Assembly: GCF_031598375.1 (NCBI RefSeq)
Contig: NZ_CP123872.1
Coordinates: forward strand, 1,903,001-1,967,000
Source: Temperatibacter marinus
GTDB taxonomy: Bacteria > Pseudomonadota > Alphaproteobacteria > Sphingomonadales > Kordiimonadaceae
DNA: 64,000 bases
Direction: 5' to 3'
This document shows positions 5,558 to 45,244 of this stretch, piece after piece. A program made the translations under genes and the position numbers. The notes below the pieces were generated by a model. It was not told the origin of the DNA and searched no databases. It saw only the letters and a program-made list of their open reading frames with translations. The stretch's first letter is position 1, and every line of letters begins with the position of its first letter.

Positions 5558-6526
5558 ATGAGTTTTTGTGAAATGAGCACAAACGCAGGACAGAAGATTA
5601 GGGAATCCCTGACAAATATAAAAGGACGCTTAACAGTAGGCGCTCCTCTGTTCAGGTTGAGCTGGTTTCGCACAGGAGGCCCTGCAGATCTGTTATTTGA
5701 ACCTACAGATGAGAAGGACCTGGCTGGGTTTCTACGGCAATTGCCAAGTCACATTCCTGTGACTGTTATAGGTGTTGGATCCAACTTATTGGTTCGAGAT
5801 TCTGGAGTTCGCGGTGTTGTCATAAGACTAGGAAGAGCTTTTTCTGATATTGAAGCACGCGGAGATTTGGTCAAGGCAGGCGGCGGAGCGATGGATGCTC
5901 ACGTTGCCAAAGCAGCACAGAAGGCCGGCATTGGTGGGCTTGAATTTCTGATAGGTATTCCAGGTACCCTTGGCGGGGCCGTCTTTATGAATGCAGGGGC
6001 ATATAATCAGGAATTGAGAGACTGCTTAATCCACGCGAGAGCTGTTGATCGATTGGGCGCACTTCATGAAATTGATCCGACACAGTATGAATTTTCTTAT
6101 CGTTCGAGCGGCTTGCCTGAGGATTGGATTATCACCAGTGTAAACTTAAAAGGGACAATTGACGAGTGTGCAGACATTGAAAAAAAGATGACTCAGATTA
6201 TGGCGACCCGCTCTGATAGCCAACCCATAGGGACACGGACTGGAGGATCAACATTTAAAAACCCTGATCCTCTCGTGTCGAATGATCGGAGCGCTTGGCA
6301 ACTGATTGATGAGGCTGGCATGCGCGGGGCTCGGGTTGGGGATGCGCAGGTATCGGAAAAACATTGTAATTTCTTAATAAATCATGGGCATGCTTCAGCG
6401 AAGGACATTGAAGATCTCGGGAACTTAGTAAGAGAGTCAGTGCTTGAAAAGCTTGGTGTTGAGCTTCACTGGGAAATAAAAATCATTGGCGAAAAGGGCG
6501 GATACCATGACAACGCTTTATTATAA
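5558..6526 (+). CDS. murB: UDP-N-acetylenolpyruvoylglucosamine reductase
   Basis: FAD-dependent, NADPH-using reductase that makes UDP-MurNAc. The 322 residues contain the FAD-binding GVGSNLLVRD motif, the IPGTLGGAVFMNAGAY segment, YRSSG, and GGSTFKNP, where the Ser corresponds to the usual proton donor; the DEAGMRGARVGDAQVSEKH region is also typical. ATG 5558 has an AGGAG site 7 bases upstream that overlaps the murC stop. The 3' end overlaps ftsQ by 20 bases. In many alphaproteobacteria a ddl gene sits here between murB and ftsQ; there is none in this window. Confidence 0.97.
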   Translation: MSFCEMSTNAGQKIRESLTNIKGRLTVGAPLFRLSWFRTGGPADLLFEPTDEKDLAGFLRQLPSHIPVTVIGVGSNLLVRDSGVRGVVIRLGRAFSDIEARGDLVKAGGGAMDAHVAKAAQKAGIGGLEFLIGIPGTLGGAVFMNAGAYNQELRDCLIHARAVDRLGALHEIDPTQYEFSYRSSGLPEDWIITSVNLKGTIDECADIEKKMTQIMATRSDSQPIGTRTGGSTFKNPDPLVSNDRSAWQLIDEAGMRGARVGDAQVSEKHCNFLINHGHASAKDIEDLGNLVRESVLEKLGVELHWEIKIIGEKGGYHDNALL

Positions 6527-7289
6527 ATATGGGCGCAGGTTTGTCTCTCTGTTACTGATACTCTCAGTGAGCAGTCTTGGGTTATTCTTTCATATGAATA
6601 AAGCCATGCTGAAAACTGAATGGATTAATTACACACGTGATATGGGACTGGTTTTAGAAAATGTTGCCATCACGGGGCATCACAAAACCACGAGAAGTCA
6701 AATCCAATCTGTTCTTGATATCGACCAAGGCATGCCACTTGTTTCTATGGATTTAGGTGCGATCAGAAAACGTATTGAAGAGCTGCCTTGGGTTGAACAA
6801 GTGGCCTTAAAGCGTCGCTATCCAAACACGCTTGATATCCAAATTCAAGAACGCATTCCTATGGCTTTATGGCAAAGTGAAGGGGTTGTTTCTTTGGTCG
6901 ATGAAGCCGGGTTTATTTTAACCAGAAAAAATCTTGAGTCTTATACTGATTTACTGTTGATCGTCGGCGAAAATGCCCATAGAAATATTGCTGAAATCTC
7001 AAAGATTATTGAGAGCCAAGCGCATCTAAGTTCTTTTGTACGATCAGCAGTGCATGTTGGCAATCGCCGGTGGGACATTCACTTTATGAATGGCATGCGG
7101 CTTCGGTTGCCTGAGACGACAGATCAGCAAGAAGCTTTGAGTGCGATGGCACATTTTGCTGAGCTACAGAAAAGCTATGATGTGCTGTCACGAGAAATTT
7201 CTGTGATTGATTTAAGAAGTGATAAAGTCATTCTGAAATTAACCCCAAAGGGGAAGAGAATGATGCGTCGAGAGAATATTTATTCATAA
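6507..7289 (+). CDS. ftsQ: Cell division protein FtsQ
   Basis: Bitopic inner-membrane divisome protein that scaffolds FtsB/FtsL. Starting at ATG 6507 gives 260 residues: a short basic cytoplasmic tail, a single membrane helix around residues 13-31, and a POTRA-like domain beginning with VLENVAITGHHKTTRSQI, followed by the FtsQ domain (LPWVEQVALKRRYPNTL). A TTG at 6486 in the same frame would add seven residues, but ATG 6507 has an AAGGGCGG stretch just upstream. It overlaps murB by 20 bases and is followed 27 bases later by ftsA. Confidence 0.93.
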   Translation: MTTLYYKYGRRFVSLLLILSVSSLGLFFHMNKAMLKTEWINYTRDMGLVLENVAITGHHKTTRSQIQSVLDIDQGMPLVSMDLGAIRKRIEELPWVEQVALKRRYPNTLDIQIQERIPMALWQSEGVVSLVDEAGFILTRKNLESYTDLLLIVGENAHRNIAEISKIIESQAHLSSFVRSAVHVGNRRWDIHFMNGMRLRLPETTDQQEALSAMAHFAELQKSYDVLSREISVIDLRSDKVILKLTPKGKRMMRRENIYS

Positions 7290-7316
7290 GATAAACTGGG
7301 AATTAGGTTAAACATT

Positions 7317-8585
7317 ATGGCAAGAAAAGCAGCACAGGACGGTTTAATGGGTGTATTGGATGTAGGCTCATCCAAGGTTGCCTGTCTTGTAGCGCGACGG
7401 CAAATGGACGGCAGTTATAAAGTTATAGGCGTTGGTAATACAGCCTCTAAGGGGGTCATCGCAGGCCAGATAACAGATATGGATTCTGTAGAGCAATCTA
7501 TCAGGCAAGCTGTTGAAAAAGCAGAAAAAATGGCCGGAGAGCGATTGGATCTTTACACGCTTGCGCTGCATTGCGGTGATCCAGCAAGCGAAGTCTTAAC
7601 GGTTGAAGTTGATGTGGATGGTCAGGTTGTCACTGAGGATGATATTGAAAGTGTCATGACTTTGGCACGTCAAAAGGCAACCATCGATGAAGATCGTGAA
7701 ATTATTCATGCTTTTCCTGCTTTTTATATGATCGATGGCAATTTTGCCCCTAAGGCGCCCATTGGTATGTATGGTAAAAAATTGAGTGTTAACATGCACT
7801 TAATCACCGTGCTCGCAGCGCCATTAAGGAATATGGAATTATGCGTACGGAAAGCCAATATCGGCATTGATGGGATGATCGCGGGGCCGTATGTTTCAGG
7901 GCTCTCAACATTGTATGAGGACGAAATTGAAATGGGCGCTGCCTGTATTGATATTGGGGGAGGGACAACCACCGTTTCAATATTCATGCAGGGGACAATT
8001 GTCGATGTGAAGGTTTTGCCCATTGGCTGCAATAGTCTTACAGAGACGATAGCTCGAGAATTATTGACGCCAAGAGATAAAGCTGAGCGTCTCAAAAACT
8101 CTGAGGGCGGTGTCATTAGAGCCGCAATTGATGATCGTGTTGAGATAGATGTCCCTATTATTGGGGGTAAGTCGGATGACAGTGATGCGCGACGCATGTC
8201 GCGGAGCCATTTAACGTATCTCATGCAGAATCATTATGAGTTTCTTCTCAGAGAAGTCAAAAAGCACCTTGATGGAACAGGCTTTACGGAATCCCACGCT
8301 AAGCGGGTCATAATAACAGGCGGCGCGTCGAAAGCAGAAAGACTTGAGGATTTGGCAGGGTCAATTTTAGGGAAGAATGTACGAATAGCATCTCCAGCCT
8401 TAATGGCAGGGCTACCAATATCTGCTCAAAGTCCGATTTTTGCATGCTGTGCAGGACTTTTAGTATATAATGAACTGAAACCTGTTGATGTTACAGCAGA
8501 TAGTGGGCGCAAAAAACGCTTACGTAAACCTGCTAGAGATGGGATGTTTGGTAAAATAGGATCCTGGATGAAAGGTAATTGGTAA
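7317..8585 (+). CDS. ftsA: Cell division protein FtsA
   Basis: Actin-like ATPase that anchors FtsZ filaments to the membrane. The 422 residues show the phosphate-1 motif LDVGSSKV near residue 17, the 1C-domain region, the phosphate-2 motif CIDIGGGTTTVS, ITGGAS, and a C-terminal amphipathic end (FGKIGSWMKGNW) matching the membrane-targeting sequence. The short C-terminal linker is rich in Lys and Arg. It lies 27 bases after ftsQ and 104 bases before ftsZ. Confidence 0.97.
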   Translation: MARKAAQDGLMGVLDVGSSKVACLVARRQMDGSYKVIGVGNTASKGVIAGQITDMDSVEQSIRQAVEKAEKMAGERLDLYTLALHCGDPASEVLTVEVDVDGQVVTEDDIESVMTLARQKATIDEDREIIHAFPAFYMIDGNFAPKAPIGMYGKKLSVNMHLITVLAAPLRNMELCVRKANIGIDGMIAGPYVSGLSTLYEDEIEMGAACIDIGGGTTTVSIFMQGTIVDVKVLPIGCNSLTETIARELLTPRDKAERLKNSEGGVIRAAIDDRVEIDVPIIGGKSDDSDARRMSRSHLTYLMQNHYEFLLREVKKHLDGTGFTESHAKRVIITGGASKAERLEDLAGSILGKNVRIASPALMAGLPISAQSPIFACCAGLLVYNELKPVDVTADSGRKKRLRKPARDGMFGKIGSWMKGNW

Positions 8586-40504: not shown

Positions 40505-41227
40505 GTGTCAACACTTGATCTTTTCTTGATTTCATTAAGCTTTATTTCTTCATTTATTACAGTTGTTTTTGGTATTGGCGGTGGGACGATCATGCTTTTA
40601 GCCATGGTGGCCATCTTACCGCCAGCTCAAATTATCATGATTCATGGTCTGGTTCAGCTTTCTTCGAATTTCTTTAGAGCTGTAATGTTCCGAAAGACTG
40701 TTGTCTGGTCGAAAGTGAATGTTTTTATGCTGGCCAGCTTCCTTGGTGTTGGCATCGGCACGCTTCTGACAGTTGAACTTCCAGTGGTCGCGATTAAACT
40801 CTCAATCGCAGTCTTTATATTATTTACCCTGTTTGTAAAAATACCAGCAATGACAACGAAAGGTTGGCTTGTCGGCGGCGTTGTCTCAAGCATTCTCACC
40901 ATGTTTGTGGGAGCAACGGGGACATTAGTCGCTGCATTGGTGAATGTTTTTGAACAGAGGAAAGATTATCTTATAGGTACATTGGCCGCAATGATGGTCG
41001 TTCAGCATGGCTTGAAAGTGATAGGCCTACTCTTAGTCGCGCATGTGGTTGAGATTGACTGGCTAGTTGTTCTATGCATTTGTACAGCAGGTATTCTAGG
41101 AACCCTTACTGGAAAGAAAGTCGGGCAAAGAATGGCAGATGATACCTATAAGAAAGGGCTTAAGATTGCACTGGGGTTATCTGCCTTATGGATTATTGTT
41201 GATATATTGATGGGTTTTACGACCTAA
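40505..41227 (+). CDS. TauE/SafE family sulfite exporter-like membrane protein
   Basis: A 240-residue membrane protein with about eight helices; GIGGGTIMLLAM near residue 25 and a second GATGTLVAALVN half-repeat fit the TauE/SafE family, proposed to export sulfite, sulfoacetate or other organosulfur anions. Start is GTG 40505 with GAAGGAG upstream. It follows mutL by 20 bases and overlaps the convergent PAS-like gene tail-to-tail by 11 bases. Substrate unknown. Confidence 0.82.
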   Translation: MSTLDLFLISLSFISSFITVVFGIGGGTIMLLAMVAILPPAQIIMIHGLVQLSSNFFRAVMFRKTVVWSKVNVFMLASFLGVGIGTLLTVELPVVAIKLSIAVFILFTLFVKIPAMTTKGWLVGGVVSSILTMFVGATGTLVAALVNVFEQRKDYLIGTLAAMMVVQHGLKVIGLLLVAHVVEIDWLVVLCICTAGILGTLTGKKVGQRMADDTYKKGLKIALGLSALWIIVDILMGFTT

Positions 41228-41804
41228 CTCCAAATTCTTTTAAGTCTTTATGAATGCCATTGCCGAGATCAAAGTAGCGCATTAACGTAATTTTACTATG
41301 ATCATAAACCTTTAACTCATATTCATCCATTGTTTCCTTAATCGCAGATTCTTCAAACAAACAAGCGACTCTATACACGGGTTGCCCTGCTTTGTTTGCG
41401 AGAGGAAGGTTTAGCATATGAATGTGTTTTCTTAGTCCCATTGCGTTCTTACGATTTTCTATTGCATAGCTTCCGCAAGGAGGATTGCAGATCCCCTCAT
41501 AGTGTGTTTTGGTATACTCTTGAACGGAAGGATGTGCATAATCAATGGTATTGGAGCCACTGGTGTTTTCCCCCCAAATTTGATCGAGAATGGTGCCTGT
41601 AAGTCTTAAGAGAACCGTGTCTCTATCCATTACTTCTTGAATGACTATGTGGGGTAATATTTCCACAATTTCTTGCGGAAGAAAATCCTTTTTTAGGGGG
41701 ACCTTGTACGCCCCATTCTTTGGTAGTTGTTGCCAGTAGTTCCATAATGCCAGTAATTTTTCTGGCATCTTATACTCAAAAATATTCATCGAAACAAAAT
41801 CCAT
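41217..41804 (-). CDS. PAS_5-like sensory protein
   Basis: A 195-residue soluble protein. Features: MPEKLLALWNYWQQLPKNG near the N-terminus, LPHIVIQEVMDRDTVLLRLTGTILDQIWGENTSG in the middle, and a hydrophobic LNLPLANKAGQPVYRVACLFEES. This arrangement (short helices, then a core with 'DPLRLTGTxLxxxxG'-type motif) is that of the alphaproteobacterial PAS_5 family, whose function is unknown; small-molecule sensing is presumed. It lies 48 bases downstream of the alpha/beta-hydrolase gene on the same strand and may be co-transcribed. Confidence 0.68.
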   Translation of the reverse strand: MDFVSMNIFEYKMPEKLLALWNYWQQLPKNGAYKVPLKKDFLPQEIVEILPHIVIQEVMDRDTVLLRLTGTILDQIWGENTSGSNTIDYAHPSVQEYTKTHYEGICNPPCGSYAIENRKNAMGLRKHIHMLNLPLANKAGQPVYRVACLFEESAIKETMDEYELKVYDHSKITLMRYFDLGNGIHKDLKEFGVRS

Positions 41805-41852: not shown

Positions 41853-42707
41853 TTAGCTAAAATTATACCTATTTTTTAGAAAACTCTCTAAATCTAATAT
41901 TGATTGTTCACTTTTTTCGAGGGGCAAGAGGTGCCCATATCCATCATAAGAGATTGATTTGCATTTGGAATTACTCAAAAGTTTTTTAAAGGTTTCAACG
42001 TCAGAGACTTTATAGTGAGGGTTGTTTGTACCGTGTAGGAGCAAGCTGTTGCAGGTGACTTTTGCCAAAGTCGTTTCAGCAGGTCCTATAATAAAGCTTT
42101 CCATACGCTTGAGAATCTCTTTTATTGTATTTGGGCGCGCACTTAATTTAATCAATTCTATCGCCAATCTTTTGTCGATTTTAGCTTGGGGACCTCGGTA
42201 TCCTGCAATCACTTGTTCAAGAAAGCTTTCTGGTGTTGATAAAATTGTTTGTTTGACGTCTTCTGGCAATGGTGATGGCTGGGCGGTGCTTACAGCATGG
42301 TGGGGCAGGCCTGCACTGTTAATTAAGGTCAGGCTTTGAACATGCTGGGGATAGTTTGCAGCCATCTGATAAGCTATTTTCCCTCCGAGAACGGAGCCTA
42401 TGAAATGGGCTTGAGAAATTTCAAAGGTTGAGAGAATTGTACGGATAACGTCTATATCCCCATGATCCGTGTACTGGCCAGACCGCGGCGGATGGGATAA
42501 GCCAAAACCTGGTAAGTCAAATCGAATGATATCAAAGTCATCCCTTAACCTTTCGACCCAGCTATCCCAGATGGCTAGCCCGAAATAATTTCCATGAATT
42601 AAAACAAGTGTATCAGCCTTCTTATTGCCTTCTCGAACAACGTGGATCATGCCCGTTGGAGTGTCGATTAATTGACTGCCTTCTCTATTGCCCATGTTCG
42701 TGTGCAT
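41853..42707 (-). CDS. Alpha/beta-hydrolase-fold protein with degenerate catalytic triad
   Basis: A 284-residue alpha/beta hydrolase-fold protein. The fold is recognisable: LVLIHGNYFG (oxyanion loop), FDLPGFGLSHPP, and a final GYGHLLPLEKSE with the His. The nucleophile elbow, normally G-x-S-x-G-G, reads G-S-V-L-G-G, placing Val at the nucleophile position, and the post-strand-7 acid motif, normally G-x-x-D, reads G-T-N-N. Two of the three catalytic residues are thus replaced. ATG 42707 has AAGGA upstream; a TTG one codon earlier is possible. It may be a non-hydrolytic binding or signalling protein. Upstream of the PAS_5-like gene, possibly in one transcript. Confidence 0.8.
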   Translation of the reverse strand: MHTNMGNREGSQLIDTPTGMIHVVREGNKKADTLVLIHGNYFGLAIWDSWVERLRDDFDIIRFDLPGFGLSHPPRSGQYTDHGDIDVIRTILSTFEISQAHFIGSVLGGKIAYQMAANYPQHVQSLTLINSAGLPHHAVSTAQPSPLPEDVKQTILSTPESFLEQVIAGYRGPQAKIDKRLAIELIKLSARPNTIKEILKRMESFIIGPAETTLAKVTCNSLLLHGTNNPHYKVSDVETFKKLLSNSKCKSISYDGYGHLLPLEKSEQSILDLESFLKNRYNFS

Positions 42708-42821
42708 CAATGTTCCTTTTTTGTCACCTAATAGGAATGCGCAGTAACTGTCAATGTTCGTTGGTCTTTTTCATACTTCATGATAGACTGGTTTCGGGCA
42801 AAAATAACAGGCTGGACGACT

Positions 42822-44024
42822 ATGGCTGATGAAAATTTACTAGGGCCTCTCGAGACATATCACGAGATGGCACGCATTGGTGAAATAACCATCGATCAAG
42901 ATCAATTACGCGTTGTTGAGCATCTTGAAAGGTTATTTTCAGAGCTGAAAGATTATCCCGAAGTTGCAGGCAGGTCAAAAGGGTTGGCCATGCGCAGTTG
43001 GCGGATGATGAAGATGTTTTCATGGGGAAATAGAAAGCTTATTGCGCCAAAAGGGCTCTATCTGCACGGCGGGGTGGGACGGGGCAAGTCCATGTTAATG
43101 GACCTTTTTTACGACTGTGCGCCTGTCCGTTTTAAACGTCGTGTCCATTTTCATGATTTTATGCTTGATGTTCATGCACGCCTTAAGGTGTGGAATGATA
43201 TGTCAACCAAAGAACGGGCTGCTATGGGAAGCCGTGCGACGGGGGATGATCCCATTCCTCCGGTTGCACGTCAGCTGGCACAAGAAGCCACCTTACTCTG
43301 TTTTGATGAAATGCAAGTGACGGATATTGCAGATGCTATGGTTCTGGCACGGTTGTTTGGAGAGCTCTTGGATCGAGGGGTGGTGGTAATCTCCACAAGT
43401 AATAGAGTACCGGATGACCTTTATAAGGACGGGATCAATCGCCAGCTATTCCTGCCTTTTATTGAACGTATTAAGAAAGATTTTGATGTGGTGCCTCTTG
43501 ATGGGCCGACGGATTATCGTTTAGGTCGAATGAAGGGCTTGCAAACCTATTATTCTCCTCTTAATGAAGAGTCTACGGATGCTTTACGTGCCGCCTTCTT
43601 TAAACTGACAGATAGAAATGTTGAGGATGCTGATCAGGTGCCTACTGATATGGTAGAGGTCCAGGGGCGAAAAGTATTTGTGCCGAAGGCAGCGAGGGGT
43701 GTTGCAGTCTTCAGCTTTAAGCGATTATGTGCTGCTGCTCTTGGGGCAGCAGACTATCTTGCCATAGCACGCAGGTATCATACGATTATCATGGTGGCCA
43801 TACCAAAACTAGGGCCTCACAATCGAAATGAAGCCAAACGATTTGTTACCTTTATCGATGCCCTTTATGAAAATGGGGTGAAATTCTTATGCTCCTCAGA
43901 AGCCGAGGCCGTCGATCTCTATAAAGAAGGGGACGGCGCTTTTGAATTTGAACGGACGGTATCTCGCCTCATGGAGATGCAATCAGAGGATTATCTCAAA
44001 CGCGGTCATGGGGCCCTTGAGTAG
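42822..44024 (+). CDS. zapE: Cell division protein ZapE (AFG1-like ATPase)
   Basis: AFG1/LACE1-type AAA+-related P-loop ATPase; the E. coli protein binds FtsZ, and mitochondrial homologues help clear misassembled respiratory subunits. From ATG 42822, 400 residues; ATG 42780 would add 14. Visible: LYLHGGVGRGKSMLMDLF (Walker A), LLCFDEMQVTDIADAM (Walker B), STSNRVPDDLYKDGINR, and the C-terminal FVTFIDALYE. Alphaproteobacterial zapE often sits immediately upstream of mdh-sucCDAB; here mdh is 13.3 kb away. Confidence 0.93.
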   Translation: MADENLLGPLETYHEMARIGEITIDQDQLRVVEHLERLFSELKDYPEVAGRSKGLAMRSWRMMKMFSWGNRKLIAPKGLYLHGGVGRGKSMLMDLFYDCAPVRFKRRVHFHDFMLDVHARLKVWNDMSTKERAAMGSRATGDDPIPPVARQLAQEATLLCFDEMQVTDIADAMVLARLFGELLDRGVVVISTSNRVPDDLYKDGINRQLFLPFIERIKKDFDVVPLDGPTDYRLGRMKGLQTYYSPLNEESTDALRAAFFKLTDRNVEDADQVPTDMVEVQGRKVFVPKAARGVAVFSFKRLCAAALGAADYLAIARRYHTIIMVAIPKLGPHNRNEAKRFVTFIDALYENGVKFLCSSEAEAVDLYKEGDGAFEFERTVSRLMEMQSEDYLKRGHGALE

Positions 44025-44100
44025 CCAGAAACTGGAACAACCGTGAATGCAAAGTCAATTTGTGTGGTGGCTTGTATGAATAACTTTCCATGAAAATTTA

Positions 44101-44128
44101 TTGAGCTTTTTTAAACTTTCTTTATAAC
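44101..44128 (+). promoter_or_regulatory. Candidate sigma-70-type promoter for the aldolase gene
   Basis: TTGAGC (44101-44106) and TATAAC (44123-44128) are 16 bases apart, about 55 bases upstream of ATG 44183. Match to consensus only; not tested. Confidence 0.4.
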
Positions 44129-44182
44129 AATAAGAACAACATAATTTTTTACCAAACACACTTGATTGAAAAGGTCCCAAAT

Positions 44183-45244
44183 ATGAAACCAGGTGTTATT
44201 TATGGTGATGACTATGCCCGTCTCGTCCAAACATGTAAGGATGAGGGTTATGCATTACCCGCTGTCAATATAGTTGGCACAAACTCTTTAAACGCGGTGC
44301 TTGAATCAGCAGCTAAAAATAAATCCGACGTGATTATACAATTGTCCAATGGCGGCGCTCAATTCTTTGCTGGAAAAGGTATGGAAGATAGCTTTAAAGC
44401 CAAAGTTTTAGGCGCAGTCTCAGCGGCACAGCATGTCCATCTTTTAGCGGAACATTATGGTGTATGTGTTGTTCTGCACACAGATCATGCTGATCGCAAG
44501 CTCGTGCCTTGGGTTGATGCTCTCATCGAAGAAGGGAAGAAGTACAAGGATCTTATGGGCAAGCCACTCTTTACATCCCATATGCTTGATCTCTCTGCAG
44601 AGCCAATAGAAGAAAACCTCGCTACGTCCGCCGAATTTCTTAAAAAGATGACCCCTTTGGGGATGTCAATTGAGATTGAACTTGGTGTGACAGGCGGTGA
44701 AGAAGACGGTGTTGGCGGCGATGTTGATAGTTTCGATAATCCAAGCCTTTATACACAGCCAGAAGATGTTATGCAGGCTTATGATCTTTTAAACCCTCTT
44801 GGCCACTTTACCGTTGCAGCATCTTTTGGAAATGTGCACGGGGTGTACAAGCCGGGTAATGTGAAATTACGGCCGGAAATCTTGAATGCGTCACAGGTCT
44901 TGCTTGCTGAAAAAAGAGATGTTTCTGATAAAGAACTCAATTTTGTATTCCATGGTGGTTCTGGTTCAGAAAAAGCTAAAATTGAAGAGGCTGTTTCTTA
45001 TGGTGCCTTTAAGATGAATATTGATACCGATACTCAATTTGCTTTTGCGAAACCAATTGGAGACTTTGTGAAAGAAAATCCAATGGCTTTTGAAGTACAA
45101 GTCCATCCCGAGACTGGGGAACCATTTAAAAAGAAATATGACCCCCGCTCTTGGCTCAGAAAGGGTGAAGAAGAAATGGTCCGTAGATTGGATGAAGCGT
45201 TCCAAGATCTAGGGTCAGTTGGGAAGTCGTTAGCGCATCGCTAA
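44183..45244 (+). CDS. fba: Class II fructose-bisphosphate aldolase
   Basis: Zinc-dependent aldolase of glycolysis/gluconeogenesis. From ATG 44183, 353 residues, matching the E. coli FbaA-type (class IIA) length. Motifs: VVLHTDHADRK (zinc His), IEIELGVTGGEEDGVGG, FGNVHGVYKPGNVKL (zinc His), and FVFHGGSGS near the phosphate site. AAAAGG lies 10 or so bases upstream of the ATG; a TTG seven codons earlier is less likely. Monocistronic with its own candidate promoter and terminator. Confidence 0.95.
   Translation: MKPGVIYGDDYARLVQTCKDEGYALPAVNIVGTNSLNAVLESAAKNKSDVIIQLSNGGAQFFAGKGMEDSFKAKVLGAVSAAQHVHLLAEHYGVCVVLHTDHADRKLVPWVDALIEEGKKYKDLMGKPLFTSHMLDLSAEPIEENLATSAEFLKKMTPLGMSIEIELGVTGGEEDGVGGDVDSFDNPSLYTQPEDVMQAYDLLNPLGHFTVAASFGNVHGVYKPGNVKLRPEILNASQVLLAEKRDVSDKELNFVFHGGSGSEKAKIEEAVSYGAFKMNIDTDTQFAFAKPIGDFVKENPMAFEVQVHPETGEPFKKKYDPRSWLRKGEEEMVRRLDEAFQDLGSVGKSLAHR

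Follow-up and report, generated by a model that had tools for sequence, protein, structure and literature searches.

The window analysed here is a stretch of 64,000 nucleotides of the Temperatibacter marinus contig NZ_CP123872.1 (positions 1,903,001 to 1,967,000). At positions 41853..42707 of the window, on the minus strand, lies a degenerate alpha/beta-hydrolase-fold gene of 284 codons, recognized by its open reading frame (ORF), its Pfam match to Abhydrolase_1 and an AlphaFold2 model. The ORF begins with an ATG at 42707, its stop codon ends at 41853, and it holds no internal stops. The ORF caller placed the start at a TTG at 42710; residues are numbered here from the ATG, about 6 nt upstream of which we read a ribosome-binding-site-like AAGGA (42714..42718, minus strand). 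The GC3 of the gene was 0.407 (mean, 0.397; standard deviation, 0.030), giving no sign of recent acquisition by composition. Its codon adaptation was 0.686 (mean, 0.725; standard deviation, 0.021), the second-lowest among the 47 ORFs of the window.

After a gap of 48 bp, the next gene downstream, also on the minus strand (41217..41804), encodes a stand-alone PAS_5 protein of 195 amino acids, a possible partner (Pfam PAS_5, E = 5.7e-9; 36.4 bits, the cut-off being 22). PAS_5 was the only Pfam match of this protein at E 0.001, so no output domain was recognized. An identity as MopJ was rejected, as the NCBIfam equivalog scored 32.5 bits where 200 are required. Upstream of the hydrolase-like gene, positions 42780-45244 of the window contain what we take to be a zapE-like gene and then an aldolase-like gene, and beyond the PAS_5 gene lies a presumed TSUP-like transporter; all three names were read from the sequence, none from a family call. 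In none of the 29 other genomes examined did the aldolase-like gene turn up next to the zapE-like one.

We assigned the hydrolase-like protein to a fold and family by several routes. Pfam identified it as Abhydrolase_1 (E = 1.9e-23, 83.9 bits). Structure prediction, a check proposed in the earlier note, returned a model with a mean pLDDT of 91.1 and a pTM of 0.91 from an alignment of 67 sequences, so the protein is confidently predicted to have an alpha/beta-hydrolase fold, the core of which its relatives share. PlaF (6i8w) was the best PDB match by both phmmer (1.1e-18) and Foldseek (1.5e-20). When the model was compared by VIA-align, 1j1i came first (Z = 33.2) and PlaF tenth (Z = 31.4), with many hydrolases in between. 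We also obtained a weak match to the Ndr family (PF03096), whose cut-off of 23.3 bits it just passes with 24.0. An intact paralogue in the same genome with a Ser-Asp-His triad (L003) scored higher on Ndr (32.8 bits), and we therefore attribute the match to the general fold. Membership of Ndr is doubtful, since the match is unspecific: L003 passes it as well, and Abhydrolase_1 gives 83.9 bits.

To locate the active-site residues, we aligned the protein with relatives from 163 loci, which left 156 distinct relatives once 7 duplicates had been dropped. The nucleophile position is occupied by V106 (codon GTT, 42390..42392, minus strand; elbow H-F-I-G-S-V-L-G-G-K), the strand-7 acid position by N229 (codon AAC, 42021..42023, minus strand; motif H-G-T-N-N-P), and the base position by the retained catalytic-site histidine H259 (codon CAC, 41931..41933, minus strand). 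Among the relatives, the nucleophile was Ser in 155/156 and His in one (L004, a distant hydrolase from this genome); none had Val. The strand-7 acid was Asp in 150/156 and Asn in 6/156, and the base was His in 154/156, with one Tyr and one gap near a contig end. A first alignment of 69 relatives had given Ser, Asp and His in 68 each at the three triad positions. The alignment and the codons thus bear out the description from which this analysis started, namely Val at the nucleophile, Asn at the acid, a retained His and an intact frame.

The Val cannot be put down to a sequencing error, as GTT is two bases from any Ser codon. The Asn codon AAC is one base from the Asp codon GAC, and a one-base error would be possible from the sequence alone; this is disfavored because the same Asn also stands in L002, a PlaF-like paralogue from this genome, and in five further relatives. 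Some members of the group carry the acid after strand 6. In our protein this place is taken by N130, which rules out relocation of the acid to strand 6. With the nucleophile absent and the strand-7 acid amidated, ordinary Ser-type hydrolysis is very unlikely, and judging from these residues we hold with considerable confidence that the protein would not hydrolyze by a Ser mechanism. This much of the non-hydrolytic role suggested in the earlier note is upheld.

Other unusual elbows occur in this genome. His stands at the elbow of two further hydrolase-fold proteins, L004 (L115:8697-9500; G-H-H-T-G), which also aligned with Tyr in place of the base His, and L292 (G000:C1:828471-828770; G-F-H-S-G). 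A pattern search of the 29 Abhydrolase_1 proteins of the genome, several of which have no clear elbow so that the result is not a count, showed no second Val elbow. None of the papers listed in searches of the open-licence literature dealt with a bacterial protein of the PlaF-like group with Val as the nucleophile.

The two substitutions differ in their distribution. Val is private to our protein; the Asn is not, since six relatives that contain Ser share it. These Ser-Asn-His (S-N-H) relatives are L002 (L115:10529-11485), which has Ser-Asn-His instead of Ser-Asp-His; L175, L198, L209 and L213, on gamma-proteobacterial or Chromatiales contigs; and L218, on a Rhodospirillaceae contig. The motifs of L209 and L213 are identical. 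The Asn is invariant across the six-row alignment of this subgroup and N229 matches it; by eye, no Asp or Glu near the strand-6 place was common to all six rows.

We then turned to phylogeny. A quick tree built from 66 rows grouped the protein with five S-N-H rows (L213 left out) with a support of 96. When 18 active-site positions of the protein were removed, the free quick tree lacked this grouping. A tree constrained to hold the protein and the five S-N-H rows together had a log-likelihood 24.84 above that of the free quick tree and was not rejected by the AU test (p-AU 0.892). Without L002, the protein moved away from the S-N-H rows in the quick tree. A careful tree of 36 rows, from which the same active-site positions had been removed, joined it to L002 at 90/90, and placed L003 with relatives from the same family; of its 200 bootstrap trees, 0% united the S-N-H rows without our protein in a single clade. 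In each tree the protein sat on the longest end branch, with lengths of 3.1, 3.3, 3.6 and 2.4 changes per column, and each run flagged long branches meeting. In profile searches with the S-N-H subgroup, only the protein and L002 matched at E 1e-66 or better in 398 genomes of the phylum, and in 98 relatives the next match dropped from 355 to 217 bits. From these placements, the change from Asp to Asn likely came first and that from Ser to Val later. We say only likely, because placements shift and long branches meet. The losses had been described earlier as two independent events, a wording not supported in view of the Asn in six relatives that keep Ser, one of which, L002, is the closest partner of the protein in the careful tree.

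The changes extend beyond the active site. In the relatives, 37 columns are conserved to 90% or more; the protein keeps 25 of these, against a median of 36/37 over 157 rows, and only L004, L218 and L005 retained a smaller share. The 12 changed near-invariant columns comprise the two catalytic ones and G18, R24, R59, G193, R195, A197, P220, W225, P233 and E263. Those retained include Gly and Trp fold residues and H259. Moreover, 145/156 relatives have an N-terminal hydrophobic segment, defined by a mean hydropathy of at least 1.6 over 19 residues. The best 19-residue mean in the N-terminal region of our protein was 0.14 against this threshold, so the segment is missing, and an in-frame stop codon lies upstream of the start codon. 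According to the cited part of a study on PlaF, the N-terminal segment anchors that enzyme in the cytoplasmic membrane, with its catalytic domain in the periplasm (PMC9132575). Lacking such a segment, our protein would therefore be cytosolic. It can no longer be called otherwise intact, as it had been, given 10 further changed near-invariant residues and a lost membrane anchor.

Searches of 98 relatives and of 385 class, 396 order and 398 phylum genomes (overlapping sets) returned no orthologue. Full-length matches in these sets were at most 31% identical, and part matches reached 40%. A profile search of genome contigs yielded 201 relatives, of which the best 80 were at most 31% identical over the full length. 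A contig search with the protein by exact 8-residue patterns, which has low sensitivity, gave 60 pattern matches, none of them a relative, and among the 20 matches listed from a search of 60 plasmid records identity was 29% or less. The earlier note had pointed to sister species with Ser and Asp at the two positions as evidence that would tell against it; this case did not arise, as the 28 other family members yielded relatives about 31% identical or less over the full length and no orthologues. At the zapE-like locus, the hydrolase-like and PAS_5 genes were missing from the flank at E 1e-3 in 29 other genomes, and one further genome was without the locus. Among the genomes compared there, the hydrolase/PAS_5 locus is lineage-specific.

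We simulated the ORF without selection, with 2,000 runs per identity level. No stop had arisen in 3.8% of runs by 80% identity and in 0.35% by 70%, and no run was stop-free by 60%. The frame is intact at 31% identity or less to the relatives; therefore much of the divergence of the protein arose under constraint, which says nothing on constraint now.

We next considered the PAS_5 neighbor. Between the two genes, we counted 4 promoter-like sites (4.1 in shuffles) and 3 terminator-like sites (1.8 in shuffles), numbers no different from chance; none of the latter lies on the minus strand. A promoter-like site at 41890-41862 on the minus strand could serve the PAS_5 gene alone. PAS_5 matched 15 times in this genome, 14 times over the cut-off, and a PAS_5 match was present in 43/59 relatives. 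Since PAS_5 forms a large paralogous family here, a single hydrolase/PAS_5 adjacency is weak. The family is strongly expanded in this genome and in same-family relatives, with up to 17 matches in one relative (G021) and several tandem runs.

A second such adjacency occurs at the intact PlaF-like paralogue L003, which has a PAS_5 gene on each side, on the same strand (L116:5217-5777, 5778-6722 and 6736-7344; C1 about 2317.2-2319.3 kb). In this operon-like layout, the upstream PAS_5 gene ends 13 bp before the ATG of L003 and the downstream one begins right after its stop codon (0 bp). The two flanking genes scored 23.5 and 26.7 bits against the Pfam cut-off of 22 and were also recovered by a PAS_5 model built without them. 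For the 12 remaining PAS_5 matches of the genome, the coordinates show no Abhydrolase_1 match at a distance of 3 kb or less.

To see how widespread this arrangement is, we sampled 258 loci, with flanks of mostly 1.5 to 3 kb; 200 had a hydrolase match, and these came from 87 genomes (18 of the same family, our own included) and named contigs. PAS_5 adjoined a hydrolase in 7 of these 200 records, which correspond to two places only, both in our own genome; the pairing was not seen in the relatives' loci examined. For a chance expectation, we scattered 29 hydrolases (of 30 frames seen) and 15 PAS_5 genes randomly over a genome assumed to hold 3,000 genes. At least two hydrolases had a PAS_5 neighbor in 3.3% of trials; for two of the three PlaF-like hydrolases to have one, the share was 0.04%, a figure chosen post hoc. 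The PAS_5 sets at the two loci are not close copies by sequence: the neighbor of our protein matched one neighbor of L003 over 37 residues only (E = 0.004) and was closer to another, unlinked PAS_5 protein of the genome (E = 1.5e-14). The partnership proposed in the earlier note thus draws some support from the 48-bp adjacency and from the two PAS_5 genes flanking L003, and is weakened by its absence from the relatives.

We favor, at roughly even odds, the reading that the gene encodes a lineage-specific soluble pseudoenzyme, derived from a PlaF-like membrane-anchored hydrolase and kept for binding or regulation, possibly with PAS_5. Its ancestor would have been a PlaF-like, membrane-anchored copy with a Ser-Asp-His triad. 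The acid would have been lost first, giving the S-N-H state that L002 and five relatives outside this genome still show. The line leading to our protein would then have lost the nucleophile, giving Val-Asn-His (V-N-H), and the N-terminal anchor. What the old substrate pocket binds may be a ligand, lipid-like or otherwise, or else a protein, and a signal would most plausibly be passed to a partner, for which the product of the PAS_5 gene 48 bp downstream is a candidate. As to the parts of this reading, we think it probable that the protein retains a function; that it works with the PAS_5 protein is possible, if doubtful.

The 10 further changed near-invariant residues also fit relaxed constraint or early decay, in which function was lost recently, the frame is not yet broken and the protein has no present role. 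The restriction of the gene to a single species with no orthologue found, the lack of it and of PAS_5 beside the zapE-like gene in 29 other genomes, the 12/37 altered columns and the codon adaptation are all in line with such decay. It is nonetheless an unlikely account: the 284 codons are stop-free, which the simulation makes improbable beyond about 20-30% change, 25/37 near-invariant columns persist, including the Gly/Trp fold residues and H259, the start codon has a ribosome-binding-site-like motif, and the fold model is confident, though an alignment helps any relative fold.

A Ser-independent catalyst, with the H259 pocket serving as a lyase, cyclase, cofactor-free oxygenase or acyl-transfer site, has the retention of that His in its favor, and the fold is described in the cited portion of a survey as hosting carboxy-lyases with a D/E-H dyad as well as CGI-58 without Ser (PMC11878206). 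Such a dyad, however, keeps its acid, and here the supporting acid is gone (N229), with N130 no substitute. Nor are there biosynthetic genes nearby, the neighbors being zapE-like, aldolase, PAS_5 and TSUP-like genes (PAS_5 by Pfam, the rest named from their sequence). We regard this catalyst as improbable.

A broader proposal, by analogy, is that PlaF-like proteins, intact (L003) or dead (our protein), would act as ligand receptors for stand-alone PAS_5 proteins, and that at our locus binding alone would signal, as a counterpart of RsbQ/RsbP. We consider this decidedly improbable. Very unlikely, too, is a soluble regulator of the organism's own active PlaF-like hydrolases with no role for PAS_5, comparable to CGI-58/ABHD5 acting on patatin-type lipases. 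The genome does have candidates for such regulation, the intact L003 and the S-N-H paralogue L002, and CGI-58, which is without Ser, is a lipase cofactor in the excerpted account (PMC11878206). However, a membrane anchor is predicted for the relatives, and the catalytic domain of PlaF is placed in the periplasm (PMC9132575, in the part cited); our protein has no anchor or export segment and may not meet them. Finally, a weak hydrolase using another nucleophile, such as S105, which adjoins V106, is scarcely credible, since S105 lies off the elbow tip, eight of the 156 relatives carry this Ser beside their own nucleophile, so that it is no replacement, and the acid has been lost as well.

This one genome shows an apparent graded series of S-D-H, S-N-H and V-N-H within one group, with two of the three beside PAS_5. 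The best-known dead members of the alpha/beta-hydrolase fold that turned into receptors or cofactors are eukaryotic. Of greater interest as a lead is the recurrent pairing, within a single genome, of PlaF-like hydrolases with PAS_5 genes. If functional, it would offer a direct test of whether a hydrolase-fold protein feeds a PAS domain through catalysis or through binding, a question that the cited part of the RsbQ/RsbP work leaves open (PMC3183031).

Pseudoenzymes of this fold are a known kind and include bacterial families without the triad, as the cited portion of the survey records (PMC11878206). The closest comparison is with PlaF (PA2949, 6i8w), the membrane phospholipase A of Pseudomonas aeruginosa, which has the same core fold with a lid region. 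In contrast to the V-N-H protein without an anchor described here, PlaF has S137, D258 and H286, carries a TM-JM helix at its N terminus and exposes its catalytic domain to the periplasm, according to the section cited (PMC9132575). CGI-58/ABHD5 is likewise presented in the survey extract as a lipase-like alpha/beta-hydrolase fold without a catalytic Ser that acts as a lipase cofactor (PMC11878206). It is the nearest precedent for a lipase regulator of this kind that lacks Ser, yet it is eukaryotic. DUF3530 (PF12048) and DUF687 (PF05095), listed in the same extract, are bacterial hydrolase-fold proteins without the triad (PMC11878206). They are conserved families, whereas ours is a single protein inside an active family, and it gave no Pfam match to either at E 0.001.

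The gene order resembles that of RsbQ and the PAS domain of RsbP in Bacillus, in which an alpha/beta-hydrolase-fold gene lies directly upstream of a PAS gene on the same strand; for such a gene pair, this module is the nearest precedent. The cited part of a study of that system reports 45 adjacent hydrolase-fold/PAS pairs of this kind and describes a small-molecule product as proposed, without experimental support (PMC3183031). It also states that RsbQ needs its catalytic triad and that the RsbP-type PAS domain is generally linked to an output domain, be it a phosphatase, a kinase or a cyclase (PMC3183031), whereas our protein has lost its triad and its PAS_5 neighbor is stand-alone. Because of these two differences, our protein is not a member of the RsbQ/RsbP group; by analogy, it may nevertheless work like an RsbQ/RsbP module.
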